Below, piece after piece: positions 671 to 19,873 of a DNA stretch of 23,433 nucleotides. Where the stretch lies: IMG/VR virus record IMGVR_UViG_3300002514_000268, positions 1 through 23,433 of that record, one strand, 5' to 3'. The stretch's first letter is position 1; each line of letters starts with the position of its first letter. Source of the DNA: a virus. The notes under the pieces were generated by a model that saw only the letters and a list, made by a program, of their open reading frames with translations, did not search any database and was not told the DNA's origin. The position numbers were made by a program, and so were the translations under genes.

Positions 671-1417
671 CTAGAAATAAATTTTCTTCATTGCTGTACC
701 AAAATCTGTTTCCTTCGTGTCTATAAACTTGCCTCGGAGTGCTAACGTATACGAGTATTTATTTTTACTATGATATTTTATTCTAAAAACGACATAGCTC
801 TCTCGCAGCGCTTCCGATAGTGAGGGTAATATATTATCCGACAAAGAATAAATATCATCACCAAGAATAATAAAATTGTCACCTTTTTCACTGTAATAAC
901 GCTGAATTAAATCTTTAGATACCGGAATCGTAGTAATATTTCCACTTAAGCTCTTTTCTCTGGGGCGTCCCACGTAAGATTCCCAAAACATTGCTGCAGA
1001 ATCAGATGTTAACCGTGGTCCCTCCGGGAACGGAACAATTTTTGGACTAACTTCACTGTCTAGTGTGCTTTCTACTTCTTGAAAAATAGCTTTAACCACA
1101 TCATTATCTAATCCTGTTGCTTGAGTCCAGCCGGTACTTAAATCATACGAAACCCTGAACTGTCCAAAATCTACTCTTGTTCCTTTGCTAGTTTTAACCT
1201 CATAAGTATGAACTATGTTGCCATTATAATCTTTAACTTCAACATCGCTTCCCTTACCAGCACCGCCTGTGGCTGATGCTGTGTACTCAAGCGAATTATT
1301 CTCGAAAAATGAATTCATCGCCGCAGCAATTGTAGATTCGTATTTTATACCCTTTACGGCGACATTTATTTCCTTTAAATATTTTCGCCAATTCTTTAAT
1401 ATCGGTTTCATATTCAT
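671..1417 (-). CDS. PD-(D/E)XK-like nuclease candidate, third gene of the ParB-methylase cassette
   Basis: A 248-residue protein that I do not recognise by name. The segment at residues 51-92 reads like a PD-(D/E)XK nuclease core: a glycine-rich turn, GSDVEV (Asp58), then a strand with YEVKTS (Glu73, Lys75), and a later Gln86 in VDFGQFRVSYD. Glu27 in an N-terminal helix could be a further metal ligand. These patterns are seen; cleavage activity is inference. The start chosen is the ATG at 1417, whose A is the last base of the methylase stop (TAATG). A longer open frame up to 1507 exists, but it only reads through the methylase gene out of frame. Being coupled behind a DNA methyltransferase suggests the restriction half of a restriction-modification pair. 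Similar ExK-plus-FGQ proteins may also occur in marine phages without any methylase, so a repair or unknown nuclease role is possible. Confidence 0.6.
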   Translation of the reverse strand: MNMKPILKNWRKYLKEINVAVKGIKYESTIAAAMNSFFENNSLEYTASATGGAGKGSDVEVKDYNGNIVHTYEVKTSKGTRVDFGQFRVSYDLSTGWTQATGLDNDVVKAIFQEVESTLDSEVSPKIVPFPEGPRLTSDSAAMFWESYVGRPREKSLSGNITTIPVSKDLIQRYYSEKGDNFIILGDDIYSLSDNILPSLSEALRESYVVFRIKYHSKNKYSYTLALRGKFIDTKETDFGTAMKKIYF

Positions 1418-2304
1418 TACCCTATAATTAGTATTTCTGAACTCTTGCCCATTTCTTTCTTTTCTTTTATTTCTTTTGATTGAACGTTTTTCATCCCATA
1501 AGACCACTTTCCGCTCATGTCAATTATGTCAAAGTCCTTGTACATCTCTTCTATGGTTGCTACATCTCCACTATAAGATAATACCCATTTGCTCCTCTCT
1601 TTCAACAACTCAAAAAGTCCCTCGTGATCAAAGTCTTTGTGTTTATTTCCTTTATCTCCATACAATTTTTCACGTTCTCTTTCAGAGAGCATGTATGGAG
1701 GATCTAAGTATAAGAACGCATTTGGATGTGTCAAGATAGAATCTTTAAAATCTGCATGTTCAACAACCAAATTTGGCTCTTTAAAGTCCCTTATCCTCTC
1801 AATAGAAGAATCAGTGAATCTGGCATACGATGCTTTCTTAGACCAGCCTCCACTGAATGTGGCACCTGAAAAGCTGCTGCGATTAATAGCATAAAAATTA
1901 GCAGCGTTCTTCAGAGAAAACGTTGTTTGACCTCGCAACTCGTCTCGGAGTTTTTTAAATTTCTTCTTTGGAAGTCCTCTTTCGTAGCGGCGTTTCACTA
2001 CCAGCTCGCCATTCTTATTCTCTTCTTCTATTTCTTCTATCAGAGGATAAGCTTCGTCCTCTTTTCTTAGTTTATCGGCTTCATCTGCTAGCTCTTCGGG
2101 AGATTCTAGAAGAGCCTTCCAAAACCAAATAAGAGGTTCAAAGTCGTCGTAACCGTACACCTTTGTTCCTCTTGCAGCGATGGCCAACTCAAGAGAGCCA
2201 CCCCCCAGAAAGGGGGCGCAAAGCTCCCCACAATCTGGGATATGGGGCAAAATATGCTTTACAGCACGAGTTTTGCCACCAGGGTAGCGTAATGGAGACC
2301 TCAT
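1417..2304 (-). CDS. D12-class (Dam-like) N6-adenine DNA methyltransferase
   Basis: Transfers a methyl group from S-adenosylmethionine to the N6 of adenine in a short DNA site. The 295-residue protein has the D12-class motifs in order: LRYPGGK at residues 5-11 (motif X), APFLGGGSLE at 30-39 (motif I, cofactor loop), NRSSFSGATFSGG at 141-153, and LDPPYML at 200-206 (catalytic motif IV, DPPY). Length fits the Dam/D12 family (about 260-300 aa). The start ATG at 2304 shares one base with the stop of the ParB-domain gene (TAATG), and the stop shares one base with the start of the nuclease-like gene, so all three genes look translationally coupled. The target sequence cannot be read from the protein; GATC is only one possibility. 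A role in protecting phage DNA from host restriction, or from the linked nuclease, is inferred. Confidence 0.92.
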   Translation of the reverse strand: MRSPLRYPGGKTRAVKHILPHIPDCGELCAPFLGGGSLELAIAARGTKVYGYDDFEPLIWFWKALLESPEELADEADKLRKEDEAYPLIEEIEEENKNGELVVKRRYERGLPKKKFKKLRDELRGQTTFSLKNAANFYAINRSSFSGATFSGGWSKKASYARFTDSSIERIRDFKEPNLVVEHADFKDSILTHPNAFLYLDPPYMLSEREREKLYGDKGNKHKDFDHEGLFELLKERSKWVLSYSGDVATIEEMYKDFDIIDMSGKWSYGMKNVQSKEIKEKKEMGKSSEILIIG

Positions 2305-3395
2305 TAGTACTTATTAACCGGGACCAAGTTATAGCCATTGATAGGGTGAGCCTGGATAATCTGAGGTAATGCGCCTTCGAAAATAAAGGGTCGTACCGTG
2401 GGGATTGTGAGAGAAATTCCTGCCGGCAACTGACTCTTAACTACTTCCCAGGCATCAACATATAAATTCTCTATATGTTGCATAGACTTCTTGAGTCCAG
2501 CGCGGGCTAGCACCGAATCATCATCAGTGGTGTAAAAGATCAATCTCACAGGTGCGCGATTGTTCTTCAGAGCATCACGGACATGTCGCCATGCGCGTTC
2601 AGCATAGGTCTCCCCACTGTTGTCAGACGTATTGACCAGAACGTAGGAGCCTTTGGTTAGCCCGAGACTTGTCAAAATCCATTTCTCCGCTTCTGCCTTC
2701 GTCATATGCCAGATCAACCCTTGACCCTGGCGGCTTCGACTTAAAATTGCGTTACGGATTTTTGTAACCATCCCGTTGATCTGGTTGTCATACGAGCGGT
2801 TAATATCAACGTCATGATAGAGCCAATCATCAACAGCTGTCTCGGTGTTCGCAAGCACACCCTTTTGAATCAGTTCAACACCTGACGCGACGAAATTACC
2901 AAAAGTAGAATTGTATTGTGGCTTCTTCTGGTTAGCTCGCAGCCCGTTTGTTATAGTATTGCGCAAACCTGTTTTGGTGCGAGTGTATATTGCAACGGGC
3001 ATCCATTTTTCTCCGTTCTTTTGCGCTGCGGCGATGCGAGTACGACCTTCTATCGGCTCTCCATTGGTACAGATACACGGAGGAAATTCCGTCATATCAT
3101 AACCATTCAGCCTGAAAGCGACTTGAAAGCTCTCACGACGGGATTGATAATCTTTATCGTCTCGGATACCAATGTTCTTCCAGTTGGAAGAATTGAAATC
3201 AATTGATTGCAATTCTAGCCATTCGAAATGTGAAAACGTCGCGTCTTGAAATTTCATTTGGCAGGGGGGAAGTTGATTGAGATCAATCGTTCCTTTATTA
3301 TTGAAGCCCTTTCGAACTCTCACATTGCTCTTAGCCTTCTTAGCCTTCTTACCACTGGTAGTAGCGCCAGTATTCGCTTTCTTAAGAATCTCCAT
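2304..3395 (-). CDS. ParB/Srx-fold domain protein linked to the DNA methylase
   Basis: A 363-residue protein. Residues 1-30 are basic and Lys/Ala-rich, probably disordered. Residues 105-140 contain a ParB-like box (GEPIEGRTRIAAAQKNGE, then WMPVAIY), matching the pattern of an acidic residue and Arg before an Ala-rich helix and a following strand in the ParB/sulfiredoxin fold. In chromosome-partition ParB this box binds and hydrolyses CTP; phage relatives next to DNA methylases have no settled role. The remaining 220 residues, with EKWILTSLGLTKGSYVL and PVRLIFYTTDDDSVLARAG, match nothing I recognise. The start at 3395 follows AAGGAGAAG at good spacing. It is the first gene of the cassette, directly behind its promoter, so it could be a regulator as well as a DNA-site recogniser. 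Base composition looks somewhat more GC-rich than its neighbours. Confidence 0.7.
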   Translation of the reverse strand: MEILKKANTGATTSGKKAKKAKSNVRVRKGFNNKGTIDLNQLPPCQMKFQDATFSHFEWLELQSIDFNSSNWKNIGIRDDKDYQSRRESFQVAFRLNGYDMTEFPPCICTNGEPIEGRTRIAAAQKNGEKWMPVAIYTRTKTGLRNTITNGLRANQKKPQYNSTFGNFVASGVELIQKGVLANTETAVDDWLYHDVDINRSYDNQINGMVTKIRNAILSRSRQGQGLIWHMTKAEAEKWILTSLGLTKGSYVLVNTSDNSGETYAERAWRHVRDALKNNRAPVRLIFYTTDDDSVLARAGLKKSMQHIENLYVDAWEVVKSQLPAGISLTIPTVRPFIFEGALPQIIQAHPINGYNLVPVNKY

Positions 3396-3613: not shown

Positions 3614-4360
3614 TTACCCGTTCAGAAGCTCGCTGAATGCCTTATCGACATCAGATCCTTCTGTTTTGGCAACGTAGCGCTCCGACTCCTTCGAAACCCC
3701 TTCGGCATCTTCTTGAGTAAGCAAAAACTCGTCCAACATTGATTGAACATCTTGAGGAGTCTTGCGATCAAAAAGCTCCGAAATCTCTGGAATTGAATCA
3801 AGCCACTCATGGGTTTGATTCTCGTCCTTAGAAAGAAGGCTCGTCTTGCGACGTGGCGTAATGGAAGTCTGTGGGAATTGAGCCCCTACTGGTTTGCCAT
3901 ATTGAATGACCAAATCAGTTCCTTCAGATGGGTCAGTAATATCCCCATACTCAGGGTTTAATACTAGGTTTAACAGCTCTTTATAAGCCATCTTACCATA
4001 ACCCCAAATCTTGACACCTTCGTCTTCCTTACCACGTATAATGACGGGTGTGAAGAAGCGCTGACGTGCTCCAAGCTTCTTGGCCAAACGAATGTTATCA
4101 TCACCACCTTCGCGATATAAATTGCGAACAAGGCTATCCAACGCATCATCCTCTCCAAAATTTCTCTTGGGACTCAGAAAACCAGGATTTTCCCCTACAT
4201 TATAGTGGAACCAAAATTCCTTGAAGGGATCACCATCTGACGTTGGTAGAAGTCGAATGACAGTTTCGCCATCATCTGGACGCCAGAAGGCGTTCTTCTT
4301 CCCACCACGGTTTTCAACCGAATCTAACTTTTCACGCATTTTATCTAAATCAATACCCAT
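3614..4360 (-). CDS. 32: gp32-like single-stranded DNA-binding protein
   Basis: Coats ssDNA during replication and recombination and recruits partner proteins through an acidic tail. The 248-residue protein has the gp32-type opening of the OB-fold core, with AFWRPDDGETVIRLLP at residues 24-39, then aromatic-rich strands (EFWFHYNVGE, RFFTPVIIRG, VKIWGYGKMAYKELL). A linker follows, and then an acidic C-terminal tail ending DKAFSELLNG. T4 gp32 is 301 aa, so this is shorter. It contains no cysteine at all, so the zinc site of T4 gp32 is absent. The ATG at 4360 follows AAAAAGGAGAATTATA. It lies between the tubulin-like gene and a terminator and has its own sigma70-like promoter, consistent with high, separate expression. 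Confidence 0.85.
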   Translation of the reverse strand: MGIDLDKMREKLDSVENRGGKKNAFWRPDDGETVIRLLPTSDGDPFKEFWFHYNVGENPGFLSPKRNFGEDDALDSLVRNLYREGGDDNIRLAKKLGARQRFFTPVIIRGKEDEGVKIWGYGKMAYKELLNLVLNPEYGDITDPSEGTDLVIQYGKPVGAQFPQTSITPRRKTSLLSKDENQTHEWLDSIPEISELFDRKTPQDVQSMLDEFLLTQEDAEGVSKESERYVAKTEGSDVDKAFSELLNG

Positions 4361-4418: not shown

Positions 4419-4447
4419 ACTATAGTATCAAATACCCTCATTGTCAA
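4419..4447 (-). promoter_or_regulatory. sigma70-like promoter for the ssDNA-binding protein gene
   Basis: Minus-strand TTGACA (4442-4447) lies 17 bases before TATAGT (4419-4424). The -35 box sits inside the last codons of the tubulin-like gene and the -10 just after its stop. The -10 region overlaps the 12-bp palindrome ATACTATAGTAT (4418-4429). Confidence 0.6.
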
Positions 4448-5291
4448 GAGAAAAATCATATTTTTCTTCTTGGATCAAAGAAGCAAAATGAACTGAATAG
4501 ATATAGTCCTGACCATAGTCGTTCTGAAAAATAGAGTAAGAAACTCTTGTTTTGCCATCTAACCTCGAACGAATTTCACTTTTAATGCGAGATAAAAGCT
4601 TCGTATCGTTTTCAAGATTTTCTGCGTGTATGGAATAGTAATAATGTTTTTCGCGGGGGAACTGAAGGTCATATAAAAGATTCTCATTTCCTTTCTCATC
4701 TACAAATCCCAACGTTGCAATTCTGGCAATCTCTAAGGGTTCCGATAGAGTCTGCATTATCGGCTCGATGTTAGTGAAAACATTATACATATGATATGTT
4801 GAACTAATTAAATCGTTGATTTTATCATAAAAATTTCTGATGGTCAAATCCCCAATTAATTTTTCGCAATTGTCATTAGAAACAATGAACATATTTTTAA
4901 TCAACACACTCCTAGTATACTGCTGAAGAACATGAAATGTAAGACGCTCTTGTTTCTGTCTCAAATCAGATAATAGATCAACATCTGGTTTTATATATAC
5001 GAGATCGATATCTTTGGACTTGATTTGTTCTAGGAGCCTCAAAATAGCTCCCGATATGGCACCCGAGCCACCAACAAAAACAGCGTAAGGGGGCTTTGTT
5101 CGTTCTAGAAATTCTTGAACATTGGGAAAGCTTTCCTCATAAGCCTGATGAGAATTCTGAGCCTCGACGAGAAAAGAATGCTTATGTGGATGTTTTTCGG
5201 TATCGATAAGATAAACACTATACTGCGGATAAAATAAGAATTTTTCCGCTACGGCACAGCCGCCGCCGCCTAATCCAATTATCGTCGACAT
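4428..5291 (-). CDS. Divergent tubulin/FtsZ-superfamily protein
   Basis: A 287-residue protein whose N-terminal half follows the FtsZ loop order. IIGLGGGGCAVAEKF (residues 4-18) matches the T1 glycine loop and YLIDTEKH (27-34) matches T2. VFVGGSGAISGAIL (71-84) sits where the T4 signature GGGTGTG belongs, VYIKPDVDL (98-106) matches T5 (TKPF in FtsZ), and VSNDNCEKLI (137-146) matches T6 (PND). NVFTNIEPIMQTL (170-182) sits where the catalytic T7 loop (NxDxxD) belongs. In FtsZ and phage PhuZ/TubZ this fold binds GTP and forms filaments. The T4 and T7 motifs are degenerate here, so nucleotide hydrolysis is uncertain. The start ATG at 5291 follows AGAGGGTGGA and overlaps the end of the polymerase gene by 13 bases. 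A filament for positioning replicating phage DNA is inference; another Rossmann-type fold is the alternative. Confidence 0.6.
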   Translation of the reverse strand: MSTIIGLGGGGCAVAEKFLFYPQYSVYLIDTEKHPHKHSFLVEAQNSHQAYEESFPNVQEFLERTKPPYAVFVGGSGAISGAILRLLEQIKSKDIDLVYIKPDVDLLSDLRQKQERLTFHVLQQYTRSVLIKNMFIVSNDNCEKLIGDLTIRNFYDKINDLISSTYHMYNVFTNIEPIMQTLSEPLEIARIATLGFVDEKGNENLLYDLQFPREKHYYYSIHAENLENDTKLLSRIKSEIRSRLDGKTRVSYSIFQNDYGQDYIYSVHFASLIQEEKYDFSLDNEGI

Positions 5292-6481
5292 TCCACCCTC
5301 TTCATATTTCCGTAATCTTTTCCCATTGAAACGTTAACTTTGTATTCCCCGAATTCAGTATCTGAAAATGTTTTGATGATATCATTTAATAATGGCTGCT
5401 GTTCCTTACTAATATCTAAAACGATGCTATCGTGTATGATATAAGAGATACAAGATTCTGTATTCTTTAGAAGTTCTCTTATTTTTAGAGTCTGTCTTAA
5501 AACAATATCGCTTGTTGTACTTTGTATCAAATAATTAAAAGCCTTTCTATCATCTACTTCAATAATCCTTTTAAAAGGCGTAGTTAATTCGAAGCAATAA
5601 TACTTTTGTAGTATTCTATCACGATCAAAGAGAGAATTCAACCCTTTATTTTTAGCATTGGGATTATAGAGCCAAGCAAATACTTTTTCTTTGACCTCAC
5701 GTCTCTCATATTTGTTTTTATATATCTCAGCATTAATCCAGGAATGAATATCAACGTCAGGTTGTTCCTTTTCGGCAAGAGCCAACACCGTGCGTAATTC
5801 GGCTGAATTGTAATCCAGCTCAACCAATAGATCGTTTGTTGGCTTGATAATTGAGCGATTCGCCTTGTCTAGAGTTAACATCGGAAAAGAGTTCGGATTG
5901 GTAGAAAGACGACCGGTTACGGTACCATACTGATTATAGGAAATCTTAGTTTTATTTTTATCCTTAACTTTGAGAAGAGAAGATATCTTCTTGCTTGTCT
6001 TACTGAGATTACTCCAATCAATATTCAGATCTCTATTTTTTATTTCCTCAATCAAAAAAGATAAATTCTTTTGAAACTCATAATCATAGGGTTTTTTTGT
6101 TTTAGTTGTATGGGCACAGATAATATTTTCGGCGTCACACCAGTCTCTGATAAATTTAAGAGGGATAGTGTCATAAAAACACAGATCTTGTTCGTCTAAT
6201 TTTGCTTCTCTAAAGGATATATAAAATGAACGAAGTCGCGAAATTAAAGATGAAAAATACTCTTTATATTCGTCCGGACAACCCTCTAACAAAGTTTGGC
6301 CTCCGGACCAAATATAAGCATAGTCATATTTTTGAGGAGATTCAATATGAGAATTGTATCTCCAAGTTATACCATCTAATATATCAAGATTATCCTTGAA
6401 TGTCTCTTCATGGTAAAATTTACTTTTACATTTCTCTTTAAAATCAATTACTTGAAATAGATGTGAACTTTCTCTCGACAT
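5279..6481 (-). CDS. Family A DNA polymerase, polymerase domain only
   Basis: Template-directed DNA synthesis at the phage replication fork. From the ATG at 6481 the protein has 400 residues. The PolA motifs appear in order: TGRLSTNPNSFPML at 189-202; motif A, ELDYNSAELR at 221-230 with catalytic Asp223; and motif B with Arg260, Lys264, Phe268 and Tyr272 at the exact spacing of the O helix. FNYLIQSTTSDIVL at 315-328 and motif C, IIHDSIVLD at 348-356 with His350 and Asp351, follow. Ser352 replaces the usual Glu after HD. The first 180 residues show no 3'-5' exonuclease motifs, so proofreading must come from another gene or be absent. Phe268 at the O-helix position is the Pol I-type residue. 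An open frame extends upstream to 6610, but that part overlaps the previous gene; the ATG 13 bases past that gene's stop is preferred despite a weak ribosome site. Its end overlaps the tubulin-like gene. Confidence 0.88.
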   Translation of the reverse strand: MSRESSHLFQVIDFKEKCKSKFYHEETFKDNLDILDGITWRYNSHIESPQKYDYAYIWSGGQTLLEGCPDEYKEYFSSLISRLRSFYISFREAKLDEQDLCFYDTIPLKFIRDWCDAENIICAHTTKTKKPYDYEFQKNLSFLIEEIKNRDLNIDWSNLSKTSKKISSLLKVKDKNKTKISYNQYGTVTGRLSTNPNSFPMLTLDKANRSIIKPTNDLLVELDYNSAELRTVLALAEKEQPDVDIHSWINAEIYKNKYERREVKEKVFAWLYNPNAKNKGLNSLFDRDRILQKYYCFELTTPFKRIIEVDDRKAFNYLIQSTTSDIVLRQTLKIRELLKNTESCISYIIHDSIVLDISKEQQPLLNDIIKTFSDTEFGEYKVNVSMGKDYGNMKRVECRR

Positions 6482-6494
6482 TAAAACCCAAATT

Positions 6495-7916
6495 TTATGT
6501 ACAAGAATTAGTATCTTCAGGATTATTATTACGCGGCAAGTCCGTAAATGGGGGGGTGTAATCAGGACATTCGCTGCGTTTCGGAATTGGAGCAGACGTC
6601 CTAATATCATAAAGGTGCTTATGTCGCTTCTTAAGCTTGCGATTCAAAAAATCCAGTGATTTTAATTCTCCATATAGATTATATACCTTCTTAGCATTAA
6701 ATAATATGTATTTAACTTCTGCTTTGGAAAATTTAGCATCTGTCTCGTTCATTCTTAACATGAAATAACGCCCCAACCAGAAATCCTTAACAGTATAATC
6801 ACTTTCTGCCTCAAAGTCAAGAGCTTTTCTCTGTTTTCTTACTTGTGATACGATATCGTCGTTGCAGGGGCTACTTTCATACTCTTCATAAAAAGGCGAA
6901 TCACCAATGAAACTTCGATACATCTGATAAAGATAGGTTTTCAAATATTTCATATCCAGCTCGTATGTCTTGAAATAATAAATATCAAATATATTAGCCA
7001 ATCTAGAGGCACGGAATTCAAGAGACGTATTAATATCGGCTGTCCCAGGTCCGGTGCCCGAAAAATCATAATCAATAGAGATTTTAGTATAGGATTCCTT
7101 TAATACGTCAATACTTCCCACTGAGCTATAATATAGTTCTTCGTCCGATATTTTCTTTTGCATATAGCAAGAATTGAGATTGGCAACAATCCGCCATGGA
7201 ATATTTTTATCAATTATAAAACCATGATTGGAAGCAAAAAATTGAAACATTTTAAAGTTATTATCATTAACAAAAACATTATATTTAATTTTGTCATTGG
7301 AATATTTTTTATCACTAATTTCAATTGCCAAGCCGCCGATGCGAGTGGAGCAAAAACGACTTCCCACGAATCCAGACAATGTAAGCGGCGCGCCCAAAGA
7401 TTTTAAAAAATCATAAAATTGAAAAAAATGATCTACAAAATTATCGAAATTTTTAATTTTATTATTAATATCCTTTCTACTAAGATATTCTGCTAATTGG
7501 CTATATATAAACCCCATATGCTGGTGATATTTATCATAAACGCTTTCCCAACCATTAGTTACCGTAAAATTGACATAAGGAGAAGTAAAAAATTCACTAT
7601 TTCCATATATACTTTCTTTTGTTATAGTCTCTACTAATTCATTAAAAGCTTTAGCTACGAATCCCAATGCAAGGTGTGTTGCACCATCTTTAGTTTGCAG
7701 AAATGAAAGAAGATTTTCTTTGGGAATAATGAAATCACCACGATGATTAATTTTTCCATATAAATTTCTTTCCCCCCACAGGTCTAAGACAGCGTTTTCC
7801 AATTCTCCTGTCTCCTTTACTAATACTTTATCCCGATACAAAGATCTGCGATAATATAGATCTACAGTATCCATTTCATTATCTGCATAAGGTAGTTTTG
7901 GTTTTGGAAACGCCAT
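6495..7916 (-). CDS. Protein of unknown function between baseplate and polymerase genes
   Basis: A 473-residue soluble-looking protein that I do not recognise. It is rich in Tyr, Phe, Lys and Asn, has no signal peptide or clear membrane span, and ends in a Pro-rich, probably flexible tail (SAPIPKRSECPDY, FTDLPRNNNPED). A central segment, GFVGSRFCSTRIGGLAIEIS followed by a Lys/Asn-rich strand and PWRIVANLNS, looks like a folded beta-rich core. TSLEFRASRLANIFDIYY suggests a helix. It follows the 865-aa probable baseplate gene with a 34-base gap and precedes the polymerase by 13 bases. It may therefore be the last virion gene or the first gene of the replication group. GGAG lies 13 bases before the ATG, which is a long spacing. 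The long intact frame makes it a real gene; the role is open. Confidence 0.8.
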   Translation of the reverse strand: MAFPKPKLPYADNEMDTVDLYYRRSLYRDKVLVKETGELENAVLDLWGERNLYGKINHRGDFIIPKENLLSFLQTKDGATHLALGFVAKAFNELVETITKESIYGNSEFFTSPYVNFTVTNGWESVYDKYHQHMGFIYSQLAEYLSRKDINNKIKNFDNFVDHFFQFYDFLKSLGAPLTLSGFVGSRFCSTRIGGLAIEISDKKYSNDKIKYNVFVNDNNFKMFQFFASNHGFIIDKNIPWRIVANLNSCYMQKKISDEELYYSSVGSIDVLKESYTKISIDYDFSGTGPGTADINTSLEFRASRLANIFDIYYFKTYELDMKYLKTYLYQMYRSFIGDSPFYEEYESSPCNDDIVSQVRKQRKALDFEAESDYTVKDFWLGRYFMLRMNETDAKFSKAEVKYILFNAKKVYNLYGELKSLDFLNRKLKKRHKHLYDIRTSAPIPKRSECPDYTPPFTDLPRNNNPEDTNSCT

Positions 7917-16894: not shown

Positions 16895-19873
16895 TTAATC
16901 CTCAAAAGAAGCGCCGGTTGATGTAATATAGAAGTCTAAGGCAATAAATTCGATAGCTCTTGCGGGCTTCAAATAAACCTTAGCATACATAACATTTCGA
17001 TCAATCAAATCTGGTGTGGTGGTAGTTTCATCCAGTACCAATTTGTAATCACTCAAGCCAAATCTGGTTTGTACATCAGATAAAAGTGGTTCAACCTGAC
17101 CTTTGAATCTCGCCCATGTTGCAGGTACGTTTTGATCAAAGAGTAGGTTGTTTGCAATGGTCGAGATTCTCTTCTTAAGATAAATTAACAATCTCCTCAC
17201 ATTAATTCTATCCAAAGCAGTGGCTTGAACTTGACACGTCTTCTGACCAAAAACCACAATACCTTCAGTTGGGAAAGAGGCAATTGGATTGATTCTATGC
17301 TCATAAAGCTTATCACGATTCTTAGATGTAAGCTTCTTGCGTACATTCGTCACTGGAATGCCTGCAGAGCCTTGTGTGAGACCTCCGCGATTAAAACCAG
17401 CTGGAGCAAACCAAAGTTCAGAACGTGCCGCAGAAGAGCCCATCGTTCCTAAAGCAGCAACCGAAGGCGGAATCCACAGTAGCTGACCGCTTCTCCTATC
17501 GCGGGTCTGGACCCATGGGAAAAATGCCGAACCATAACTTGAATCTGTTGAGCGGATTTTCCAACTATTGATCGCATCTGTTACGTTAGGAAGCTTAGGA
17601 TAACTATCTGATGCGCCTTCTGCTCGTGGCTGATAATCGTTTTGAATGTCAACAATAGCTAAAGCATCTCCTCTATCCTCACATACATCAATTAAATTAT
17701 CTGTGAGACCGGCATGAGTAATACCAGGTATCGTAGCCAGATTATAATCTACAAATTCTGCATCTGTGACGATATTGATAGCCCGTTGAAGTGAATGGAC
17801 TGCGTAATTAGCCACTTCCGTGGAACCTCCAATCGTGGGCATGACGTTGGTGTTTGCCAAAAGAGTATTTCTAAAGGGGTCGAGTTCTCGAATATCAAAT
17901 CCATCAAAACCACCGTATAGAACAGTGGTGAATTTATTAATATCAGCAGTGTTAACTAATTCAGCTGCGCCGCTAGCGGCTGTGTAAGAGAAATTTCCTG
18001 CACGTGCGCCATCTTGATAAATCCACTCCACTGGAGCACCAGAAGAAGATACTCTTACAATATTATCCAGAGTAAATTTATATTGCAACGTTGCTACGCC
18101 AGAGGAGTCAGTAAGTCCTGCCGGAAGTACGCGTGTCAAATCAACAATATCCGAAGATAGGCGTCGATTTCCGGCGCTTTCCATCAAGTCAGCACCAAAA
18201 TATGCATTAAGCTGTCCGTTTGTGCCCATAATGACACTTGCGCTCTGTACAAGAGGGATAGACGGAAATTGAGCGACGACTTGTGTCATGCTCGCTGCGG
18301 TACCGCTGCCACCCTCATTGAAGGCGAAATCTACCTTGTTCGTAGCCGGGGAGCCCGACAACACCGGGCCGTCAACAATCTCTAAAGCATCTGCAAAAGC
18401 AGCGTCTTGGGCAATAGTTCCTACTTCGTAAGTTTTGCCACCGCTGAAGCCGCCGTTGTCTATAGTAAAATCAGCGAACTTGGGGGGACCAAGTACACCA
18501 AAAGGCATAAATGAAGGATTGCCTCCACCTTGTGCCACTGTATTGTGTACTTCAACACGCACATGATTAGATTTATTATCATAATCTCCACGAGTTTCCA
18601 GACGTTGTTCAGTGATATTATATTGCATGTATTTATCACCAATTCTGGCGGCAATATAATTAATAGAAGCAGGATTAAGATTTAGCCCACTAAATGTCTC
18701 TAGGACATTTTTCTCCCGATCATTATCCGCCATATGGCGAACTTCTACAGTAAAAGTAGGATAAGGATCCACTGTTTGTTCTTGAGCTGTGGGGAAACGA
18801 AGATCTCTAATAGAAATCTTTACTTTATTTTGCGTTTCGTGACCGGAATCGTAGAGTCCATGTAATCTGAAAAGTCTTTGAGTACCATTATCTGCAGTAA
18901 AACCCGAAGCAGGAGTATTCAAATCTTGAGATACAAACCATCCTGATTTTGCTGTCGGGGGACTGAAATCAGCGTCTTTAAGATTTCTGAAATCTCCCCC
19001 TTCGGTCTCTGCAGTTATGTTTTGGAGCTGCAACATTAAACCAATCATAGGCGCTTCGTCTTTGCCTGTAGCCGAAAGTGCGCTGACGGCTCTTTCAAAG
19101 GTTTGCCCTAAGAAATAACCTTTATTGTCGCCAGAAGGATACAAATTAGTATTCAATTGTGTAGGATCGGTATTAAAAACGTTTCTAATAAAATTCGCGT
19201 CATTAACTGAAAAGTTAAAAGTCTTAAGTCCAGCAGTACCATTTGAGGGATTTAGATAAGTTTTAAAACTGGGAGATCCGTTAGCAGTACTCTCTATCAT
19301 AGTAGCATTTGATTGGGTTACCCCGGTGGTCGCGTCGGCCATCCCGGTGATGCGACCACAGTTGCTTATATTACCACTTAAAATCAGTGACGCGTCAGAA
19401 TTGCAATACCATATCGCTGCTAAAGTTCCAGTAACAGACGTGACAGATCCACTAGGGAATACAAATAATCCATAAGCGCCGCCACCAGCGGTGGTGGGTG
19501 ATTGAGCATTCCAGCCGTTTACACCAACGGTGGTCGATGTTGCATCGGGACTTTGAGCGCCGAGCACACGCACGAATGTTAAAGGTTGATTATTGCGTAA
19601 ATAAGCTTCTGCGGCATAAGTACTATACATGGGTGAACCTTGTGAAGGGTTACGCCATGCATCTCTTACATCGCCTCCTGCCACGGGTTCGCCAAAAAGC
19701 TTGACAAATTGTTCATATGAGTGAACACGCGTTGGCAGGAATGCTGGACCTTTGACGGAGCGCCCAATAACTACCGGACCTCTTTGTTCGAAGTCAACTG
19801 TGTTGACTTGGGATTGGTCTATTTCGGTGGTAAAAACACCAGGGGATATGAAACGATATTTATCTGCAGGCAT
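16895..19873 (-). CDS. 18: Tail sheath protein (gp18-like), unusually long
   Basis: Contractile sheath subunit that drives tail contraction. The 992-residue protein starts with the sheath signature YRFISPGVFTTEIDQSQV (6-23), RGPVVIGRSVKGPAFLPTRV (31-50), then SYEQFVKLFGEP and AAEAYLRNNQPLTFVRVLG. The last 200 residues form the conserved C-terminal domain: RDKLYEHRINPIASFPTEGI, VVFGQKTCQ, LDRINVRRLLIYLKKRI, LLFDQNVPATWARF and a final strand LKPARAIEFIALDFYI. T4 gp18 is 659 aa, so the middle (about residues 110-780) holds an extra 300 or so residues, probably a surface-exposed domain. Start at 19873 follows AGGAGAATGTTCA. It is followed by the tube gene; the leader holds two copies of the recurrent TATTTAC motif. 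Confidence 0.95.
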   Translation of the reverse strand: MPADKYRFISPGVFTTEIDQSQVNTVDFEQRGPVVIGRSVKGPAFLPTRVHSYEQFVKLFGEPVAGGDVRDAWRNPSQGSPMYSTYAAEAYLRNNQPLTFVRVLGAQSPDATSTTVGVNGWNAQSPTTAGGGAYGLFVFPSGSVTSVTGTLAAIWYCNSDASLILSGNISNCGRITGMADATTGVTQSNATMIESTANGSPSFKTYLNPSNGTAGLKTFNFSVNDANFIRNVFNTDPTQLNTNLYPSGDNKGYFLGQTFERAVSALSATGKDEAPMIGLMLQLQNITAETEGGDFRNLKDADFSPPTAKSGWFVSQDLNTPASGFTADNGTQRLFRLHGLYDSGHETQNKVKISIRDLRFPTAQEQTVDPYPTFTVEVRHMADNDREKNVLETFSGLNLNPASINYIAARIGDKYMQYNITEQRLETRGDYDNKSNHVRVEVHNTVAQGGGNPSFMPFGVLGPPKFADFTIDNGGFSGGKTYEVGTIAQDAAFADALEIVDGPVLSGSPATNKVDFAFNEGGSGTAASMTQVVAQFPSIPLVQSASVIMGTNGQLNAYFGADLMESAGNRRLSSDIVDLTRVLPAGLTDSSGVATLQYKFTLDNIVRVSSSGAPVEWIYQDGARAGNFSYTAASGAAELVNTADINKFTTVLYGGFDGFDIRELDPFRNTLLANTNVMPTIGGSTEVANYAVHSLQRAINIVTDAEFVDYNLATIPGITHAGLTDNLIDVCEDRGDALAIVDIQNDYQPRAEGASDSYPKLPNVTDAINSWKIRSTDSSYGSAFFPWVQTRDRRSGQLLWIPPSVAALGTMGSSAARSELWFAPAGFNRGGLTQGSAGIPVTNVRKKLTSKNRDKLYEHRINPIASFPTEGIVVFGQKTCQVQATALDRINVRRLLIYLKKRISTIANNLLFDQNVPATWARFKGQVEPLLSDVQTRFGLSDYKLVLDETTTTPDLIDRNVMYAKVYLKPARAIEFIALDFYITSTGASFED

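Follow-up and report, generated by a model that had tools for sequence, protein, structure and literature searches.

Tubulin-like proteins are known from nucleus-forming jumbo phages, which encode PhuZ, and from the partition systems of plasmids and prophages, which encode TubZ. FtsZ is the division GTPase of bacteria and archaea, and TubZ genes have TubR and tubC as neighbors. Phage and plasmid homologs of tubulin organize replicating or partitioning DNA (PMC12908238, PMC3678025). A highly diverged member of the superfamily, FtsZl1, was described by Makarova and Koonin in 2010: counterparts of the T6-H7-T7 elements could not be identified in it, and it is a cellular protein with a coiled-coil domain whose gene neighbors encode VWA and membrane proteins (PMC2875224).

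Here we describe TubX, which by its predicted fold is a member of this superfamily but lies outside FtsZ, TubZ, and PhuZ. TubX shares with FtsZ the fold of both domains (TM of about 0.7), a T1-like glycine loop, and asparagines in T6 and H7. However, it is just 10-15% identical to FtsZ, is about 100 amino acids shorter than the protein from E. coli, lacks the T7 motif (NxDxxD), helix H8, and the C-terminal tail, and is encoded by phages within a replication operon. Its likeness to TubZ lies in the fold, but it lacks H11 and the T7 motif, and it is flanked directly by polA and gp32 at almost every locus, with no partition-type neighbors seen. PhuZ is likewise a phage protein with a tubulin fold, and there is weak profile similarity between the two (hhalign E = 4e-4), but TubX lacks H11 and the tail, has lost the T7 motif, has a different gene neighborhood, and belongs to T4-type phages on contigs of up to about 195 kb. 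TubX and FtsZl1 are both highly diverged, but TubX retains T6 and H7. We found no report of tubulins in T4-type or marine phages in the open-access literature.

The tubX locus and its relatives

The window is a whole virus record (IMGVR_UViG_3300002514_000268) of 23,433 bases, which is probably a fragment of a genome. The first-pass annotation of this DNA had placed a divergent gene of tubulin/FtsZ type among the replication genes of a T4-related phage. The open reading frame it named is confirmed (tubX; Table 1), and the placement agrees with the fold (see below), with the flanking genes for a family-A polymerase and gp32, with the T4-type tail sheath in the window, and with gp23 in relatives. 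Specifically, 11 of the 12 large tubX contigs encode gp23, the T4-type major capsid protein; this evidence comes from relatives, as the window is a 23-kb fragment. Each of these 12 contigs (69-191 kb) contains exactly one tubX.

Table 1. Positions of genes in the window, of structural elements within tubX, and of Tub2. Fractions are members of the 75-member TubX alignment with the residue.
Feature	Position	Strand	Description
tubX	4428..5291	(-)	ORF, 287 aa, ATG start; predicted tubulin/FtsZ-fold protein
polA	5279..6499	(-)	Short family-A DNA polymerase, directly upstream of tubX; PF00476 (E = 6e-20), phrog_17
gp32-like gene	3614..4360	(-)	ssDNA-binding protein, directly downstream of tubX; PF08804 (E = 6e-12), phrog_1192 (E = 8e-22)
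T1-like glycine loop	5250..5276	(-)	Residues 6-14, GLGGGGCAV; G6 74/75, G8 75/75, G11 71/75, C12 70/75
T4-like loop	5046..5072	(-)	Residues 74-82, GGSGAISGA; G75 71/75, S76 42/75, G77 52/75, G81 52/75
T6-like SND	4872..4880	(-)	Residues 138-140; N139 74/75; position of FtsZ IPND
Core helix H7	4770..4832	(-)	Residues 154-174, helix in model; N159 75/75, H167 72/75, N170 72/75
Segment replacing T7 loop and helix H8	4722..4769	(-)	Residues 175-190; no NxDxxD/E motif, no helix in model
Tail sheath gene	16895..19873	(-)	992 aa
ParB/Srx-like-motif gene	2304..3395	(-)	363 aa, unannotated
Adenine methyltransferase gene	1417..2304	(-)	D12 class
Tub2	L161:1309-2445 (contig IMGVR_UViG_3300029787_000001, 138311-139447)		378 aa; beside gp46-like gene

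Several other genes in the window are also of note. The polymerase, at about 400 amino acids, is a short family-A enzyme in a T4-type phage; phage T4's own polymerase belongs to family B. The tail sheath protein is unusually long, and its conserved sheath matches lie in the C-terminal half. The methyltransferase gene overlaps by 1 base the gene for the protein with a ParB/Srx-like motif (NGEPIEGRTRIAAAQ).

The closest relatives of the TubX in the window are 92% (L001) and 58% (L002) identical at the amino acid level. A profile built from these two identified 83 relatives, and more were collected through the neighboring gp32, which gave a family of 156 open reading frames in 160 marine loci from IMG/VR (some of these loci are overlapping pieces of one contig). 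Conservation was computed from a nonredundant alignment of 75 members (A2), which are 31-91% identical to the TubX in the window and share a few near-invariant positions. The tubX genes of the window and L001 differ by 34.5 nonsynonymous and 129.5 synonymous changes (dN of about 0.05, with dS near saturation). The 92% identity, the low dN alongside near-saturated dS, and the breadth of the family show that tubX is a real gene. Purifying selection on it is strong and equals that on gp32.

Loci that include enough DNA nearly always have the three genes arranged as polA-tubX-gp32 on the same strand. When contigs were collected through gp32 alone, 76 of 80 contained tubX; in the remaining 4, no more than about 150 nt separate gp32 from the contig end. 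Across a large clade of uncultured marine T4-type phages, tubX is nearly universal, fixed between the DNA polymerase and gp32. The 3' end of polA overlaps the start of tubX by 13 nt in the window, and among 68 members the overlap is 4 nt in 32, 1 nt in 11, and 13 nt in 5; the two genes overlap or touch in most, which suggests translational coupling. Across 113 loci, the three genes have correlated distances (Spearman 0.81 and 0.78; Mantel, 0/499), so tubX, gp32, and polA travel together.

Beyond these marine contigs, tblastn with the protein from the window and three divergent members found no relatives in 50,697 phage records. The phages nearest by gp32 and sheath among those in culture (Microcystis phage Mel-JY01 and Flavobacterium phage immuto), as well as the uncultured LR756508, have other genes in place of tubX at the polA-gp32 locus. 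Scans of bacterial and archaeal genomes did not identify any relatives either, so these give no clue to the host.

Predicted fold and nucleotide-binding loops of TubX

TubX is not recognizable from its sequence. Neither the single protein from the window (no match worth naming) nor the TubX profile (no match) identified a relative in Pfam, PHROGs, or PDB sequences. For the tubulin family PF00091, the curated cutoff was not reached: the protein from the window had no match, and just 5 of the 75 members had E < 1 (best 0.0019). Comparing TubX with small sets of FtsZ, PhuZ, and Tub2 sequences using hhalign gave weak scores (probability of 2% for FtsZ and 33% for PhuZ), and these alignments were used for residue register only. 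Its kinship with tubulin and FtsZ escapes sequence tools alone, and proteins like it are overlooked in sequence-based annotation.

Structure prediction and a fold search, which the first-pass annotation had proposed as a check, returned the topology of FtsZ and TubZ. The AlphaFold2 model of the TubX in the window, built from alignment A2, has a pLDDT of 94 and a pTM of 0.90. FtsZ and TubZ account for all of its best 50 Foldseek matches in the PDB (E = 3e-13 to 1.5e-11), with TM scores normalized to the query of 0.62-0.73 over more than 300 columns, which implies that both domains of TubX match; no other topology and no better Rossmann match is among these 50. Among viral models, the best match is an "FtsZ" from an uncultured member of the Caudovirales (E = 4e-13), followed by further proteins of tubulin type, among them PhuZ of Noxifer. 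The most divergent TubX (L081), which is 31% identical to the one in the window, was modeled separately with its own alignment (pLDDT 95.5), and its best match is TubZ (4ei7_B, E = 6e-15), with FtsZ next. Hence, the predicted structures of both members have two domains linked by helix H7, as in the tubulin/FtsZ fold. The C-terminal domain is reduced. The model of the TubX in the window stops near residue 277, and neither model continues past the last strand of this domain, with no H11 or C-terminal tail. Judging from these models, TubX almost certainly belongs to the tubulin/FtsZ superfamily, as a compact and divergent representative.

We also considered whether TubX might be some other Rossmann-type protein that binds nucleotides or NAD and is not a tubulin homolog: 25 of the 75 members have weak sequence matches to TrkA_N (NAD-binding; best 0.0011), as compared to the 5 with matches to PF00091, but we view this identity as very improbable given that both models match FtsZ or TubZ along their entire length, C-terminal domain included (TM of about 0.7; E = 1e-11 to 6e-15), that theirs is the only fold among the best 50 PDB matches, and that Rossmann oxidoreductases among viral proteins reach TM scores of only about 0.3-0.4 against TubX.

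The first-pass annotation had listed six FtsZ-type motifs. Five of these hold up: the T1 loop (GLGGGGC), YLIDTE (strand S2/T2), VGGSGAIS, IKPD (S5; P102 is present in 70 of 75 members), and VSND. The sixth, NVFTNIEP, is not the T7 loop but the C-terminal end of H7, and the residue of interest in H7, the invariant N159, was absent from that list. Across the family, the T1 loop is near-invariant and follows the pattern G-L-G-x-A-G-C. The T4 loop ([G/C/S]GSGxISG) is shortened and had been called degenerate, which is partly so (Table 1).

In a collinear hhalign register, N139 aligns with N165 of E. coli FtsZ (in IPND) and N159 with N186 (AAND in H7); the alignment is weak, and the register leans on the fold and on the order of the elements. 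These FtsZ residues are the counterparts of N206 and N228 in tubulin, which contact guanine. In FtsZ, H7 is followed by the T7 loop, whose two catalytic aspartates work on the nucleotide bound by the adjacent subunit (PMC8936486). None of the 75 TubX members has the corresponding motif (N-x-D/E-x-x-D/E) after H7, and the model of the TubX in the window has no counterpart of helix H8. At the level of sequence, all 75 members thus support the suggestion in the first-pass annotation of a degenerate T7 loop and of a protein that may bind nucleotide without hydrolyzing it. Since N139 and N159 are near-invariant and the T7 motif is missing throughout, TubX probably binds guanine nucleotide without an FtsZ-type activation of hydrolysis.

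Possible roles of TubX

We favor the view that TubX, alone or with a partner, is a replication-associated scaffold (probability of roughly 0.4). TubX would be made within the replication operon, together with the DNA polymerase and the single-stranded-DNA-binding protein gp32, and would bind GTP or GDP in the canonical pocket. It might then associate head to tail with itself, with another partner, or, where present, with the second tubulin-like protein described below (Tub2). The resulting polymer or cap could turn over slowly, or without the drive of T7-type hydrolysis, and may organize the phage's replication centers in the cell. This proposal draws on the fold, on a family with over 150 loci, on the co-inheritance and overlap with the replication genes, on purifying selection, on N139 and N159, and on the roles of known tubulin homologs. 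Four points argue against a scaffold. First, the bottom face of TubX (T7 and H8), which appears to be remodeled in the model, is half of the longitudinal contact in FtsZ and tubulin. Second, the C-terminal helix H11, which PhuZ uses, is missing from the predicted structures. Third, the position in the operon fits a subunit of the replisome equally well. Fourth, the placement of N139 and N159 at guanine-contact positions depends on the weak hhalign alignment together with the fold.

The same remodeled face is what would be expected of a capper, with the top face kept and the bottom face lost. TubX might therefore be a decoy that binds the host's FtsZ through the retained nucleotide face and caps or poisons its filaments, so that division stops during infection. 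The fold of TubX is closest to FtsZ and TubZ, and there are precedents for phage proteins targeting FtsZ, such as Gp0.4 of phage T7 (PMC13423816). However, tubX lies mid-operon among replication genes, evolves under strong purifying selection, and coevolves with gp32 and polA. Also, phage inhibitors of FtsZ tend to be encoded by small early genes. Both the strong purifying selection on tubX and its inheritance alongside polA and gp32 favor a role in replication over an early function directed against the host, and we consider a decoy unlikely.

Selection and co-inheritance do not distinguish a filament from a subunit. TubX could instead be a monomeric or dimeric sensor of guanine nucleotides that does not polymerize and that binds PolA or gp32, tuning replication or the translation of the operon. 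The translational overlap with polA, the fixed proximity to gp32, and the loss of T7, H8, and any C-terminal tail would all fit such a regulator. On the other hand, we know of no dedicated replisome subunit with the tubulin/FtsZ fold, and the characterized members of the superfamily, as of 2010, formed filaments (PMC2875224). A regulator is possible but also doubtful.

Phage tubulins were previously known from nucleus-forming jumbo phages and from plasmid-like prophages, and TubX has no relative in the cultured phages we searched. If TubX polymerizes, then tubulin-based spatial organization of replication extends to T4-type phages of ordinary size. If it does not, then TubX is a member of the superfamily that abandoned filament formation. 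Either outcome informs what the tubulin fold requires for making filaments. As for a phage nucleus, chimallin (gp54 of phiKZ) had no match by protein sequence in nine large relatives, but chimallins diverge and this comparison had no positive control.

A second tubulin-like gene, Tub2

The 191-kb contig G001 contains, directly after a gp46-like gene, a 378-amino-acid gene that matches PF00091 over the cutoff (Tub2). Relatives of Tub2 are found in 119 viral contigs, and the 80 that were kept are 85-100% identical to each other, so Tub2 is far more conserved than TubX. Tub2 is distantly similar to gp138 of Bacillus phage G, which is annotated as a putative FtsZ-like protein. Tub2 and TubX belong to the same superfamily, occur in the same type of phage, and each have a replication or recombination gene as a neighbor. 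Unlike TubX, Tub2 has canonical T1 and T4 loops, DxxD at T7, and an acidic N-terminal tail, in addition to its clear match to PF00091 and its high conservation.

Six of seven Tub2 contigs of at least 127 kb also contain tubX, and G001 is a further case. We considered whether all phages with tubX might have Tub2 as well, but this was rejected: the Tub2 phages form a single clade (23 rows of the TubX tree, SH-aLRT of 100), the window lies outside it, Tub2 was not found in the 11 other large TubX contigs, and the genes adjacent to gp46 in other members are not Tub2.

A more specific form of the scaffold would be a new class of phage replication cytoskeleton: a tubulin encoded in the replisome operon across the lineage, without self-activated GTP hydrolysis, which in one subclade is paired with a hydrolysis-competent, FtsZ-like partner as a two-component filament (analogous to alpha- and beta-tubulin). 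This combination seems improbable to us as a whole.

In the gp46 regions of seven large relatives (L288-L294), the SbcD-like (gp47) and SbcC-like (gp46) parts are apparently fused into one open reading frame of about 1050 amino acids.
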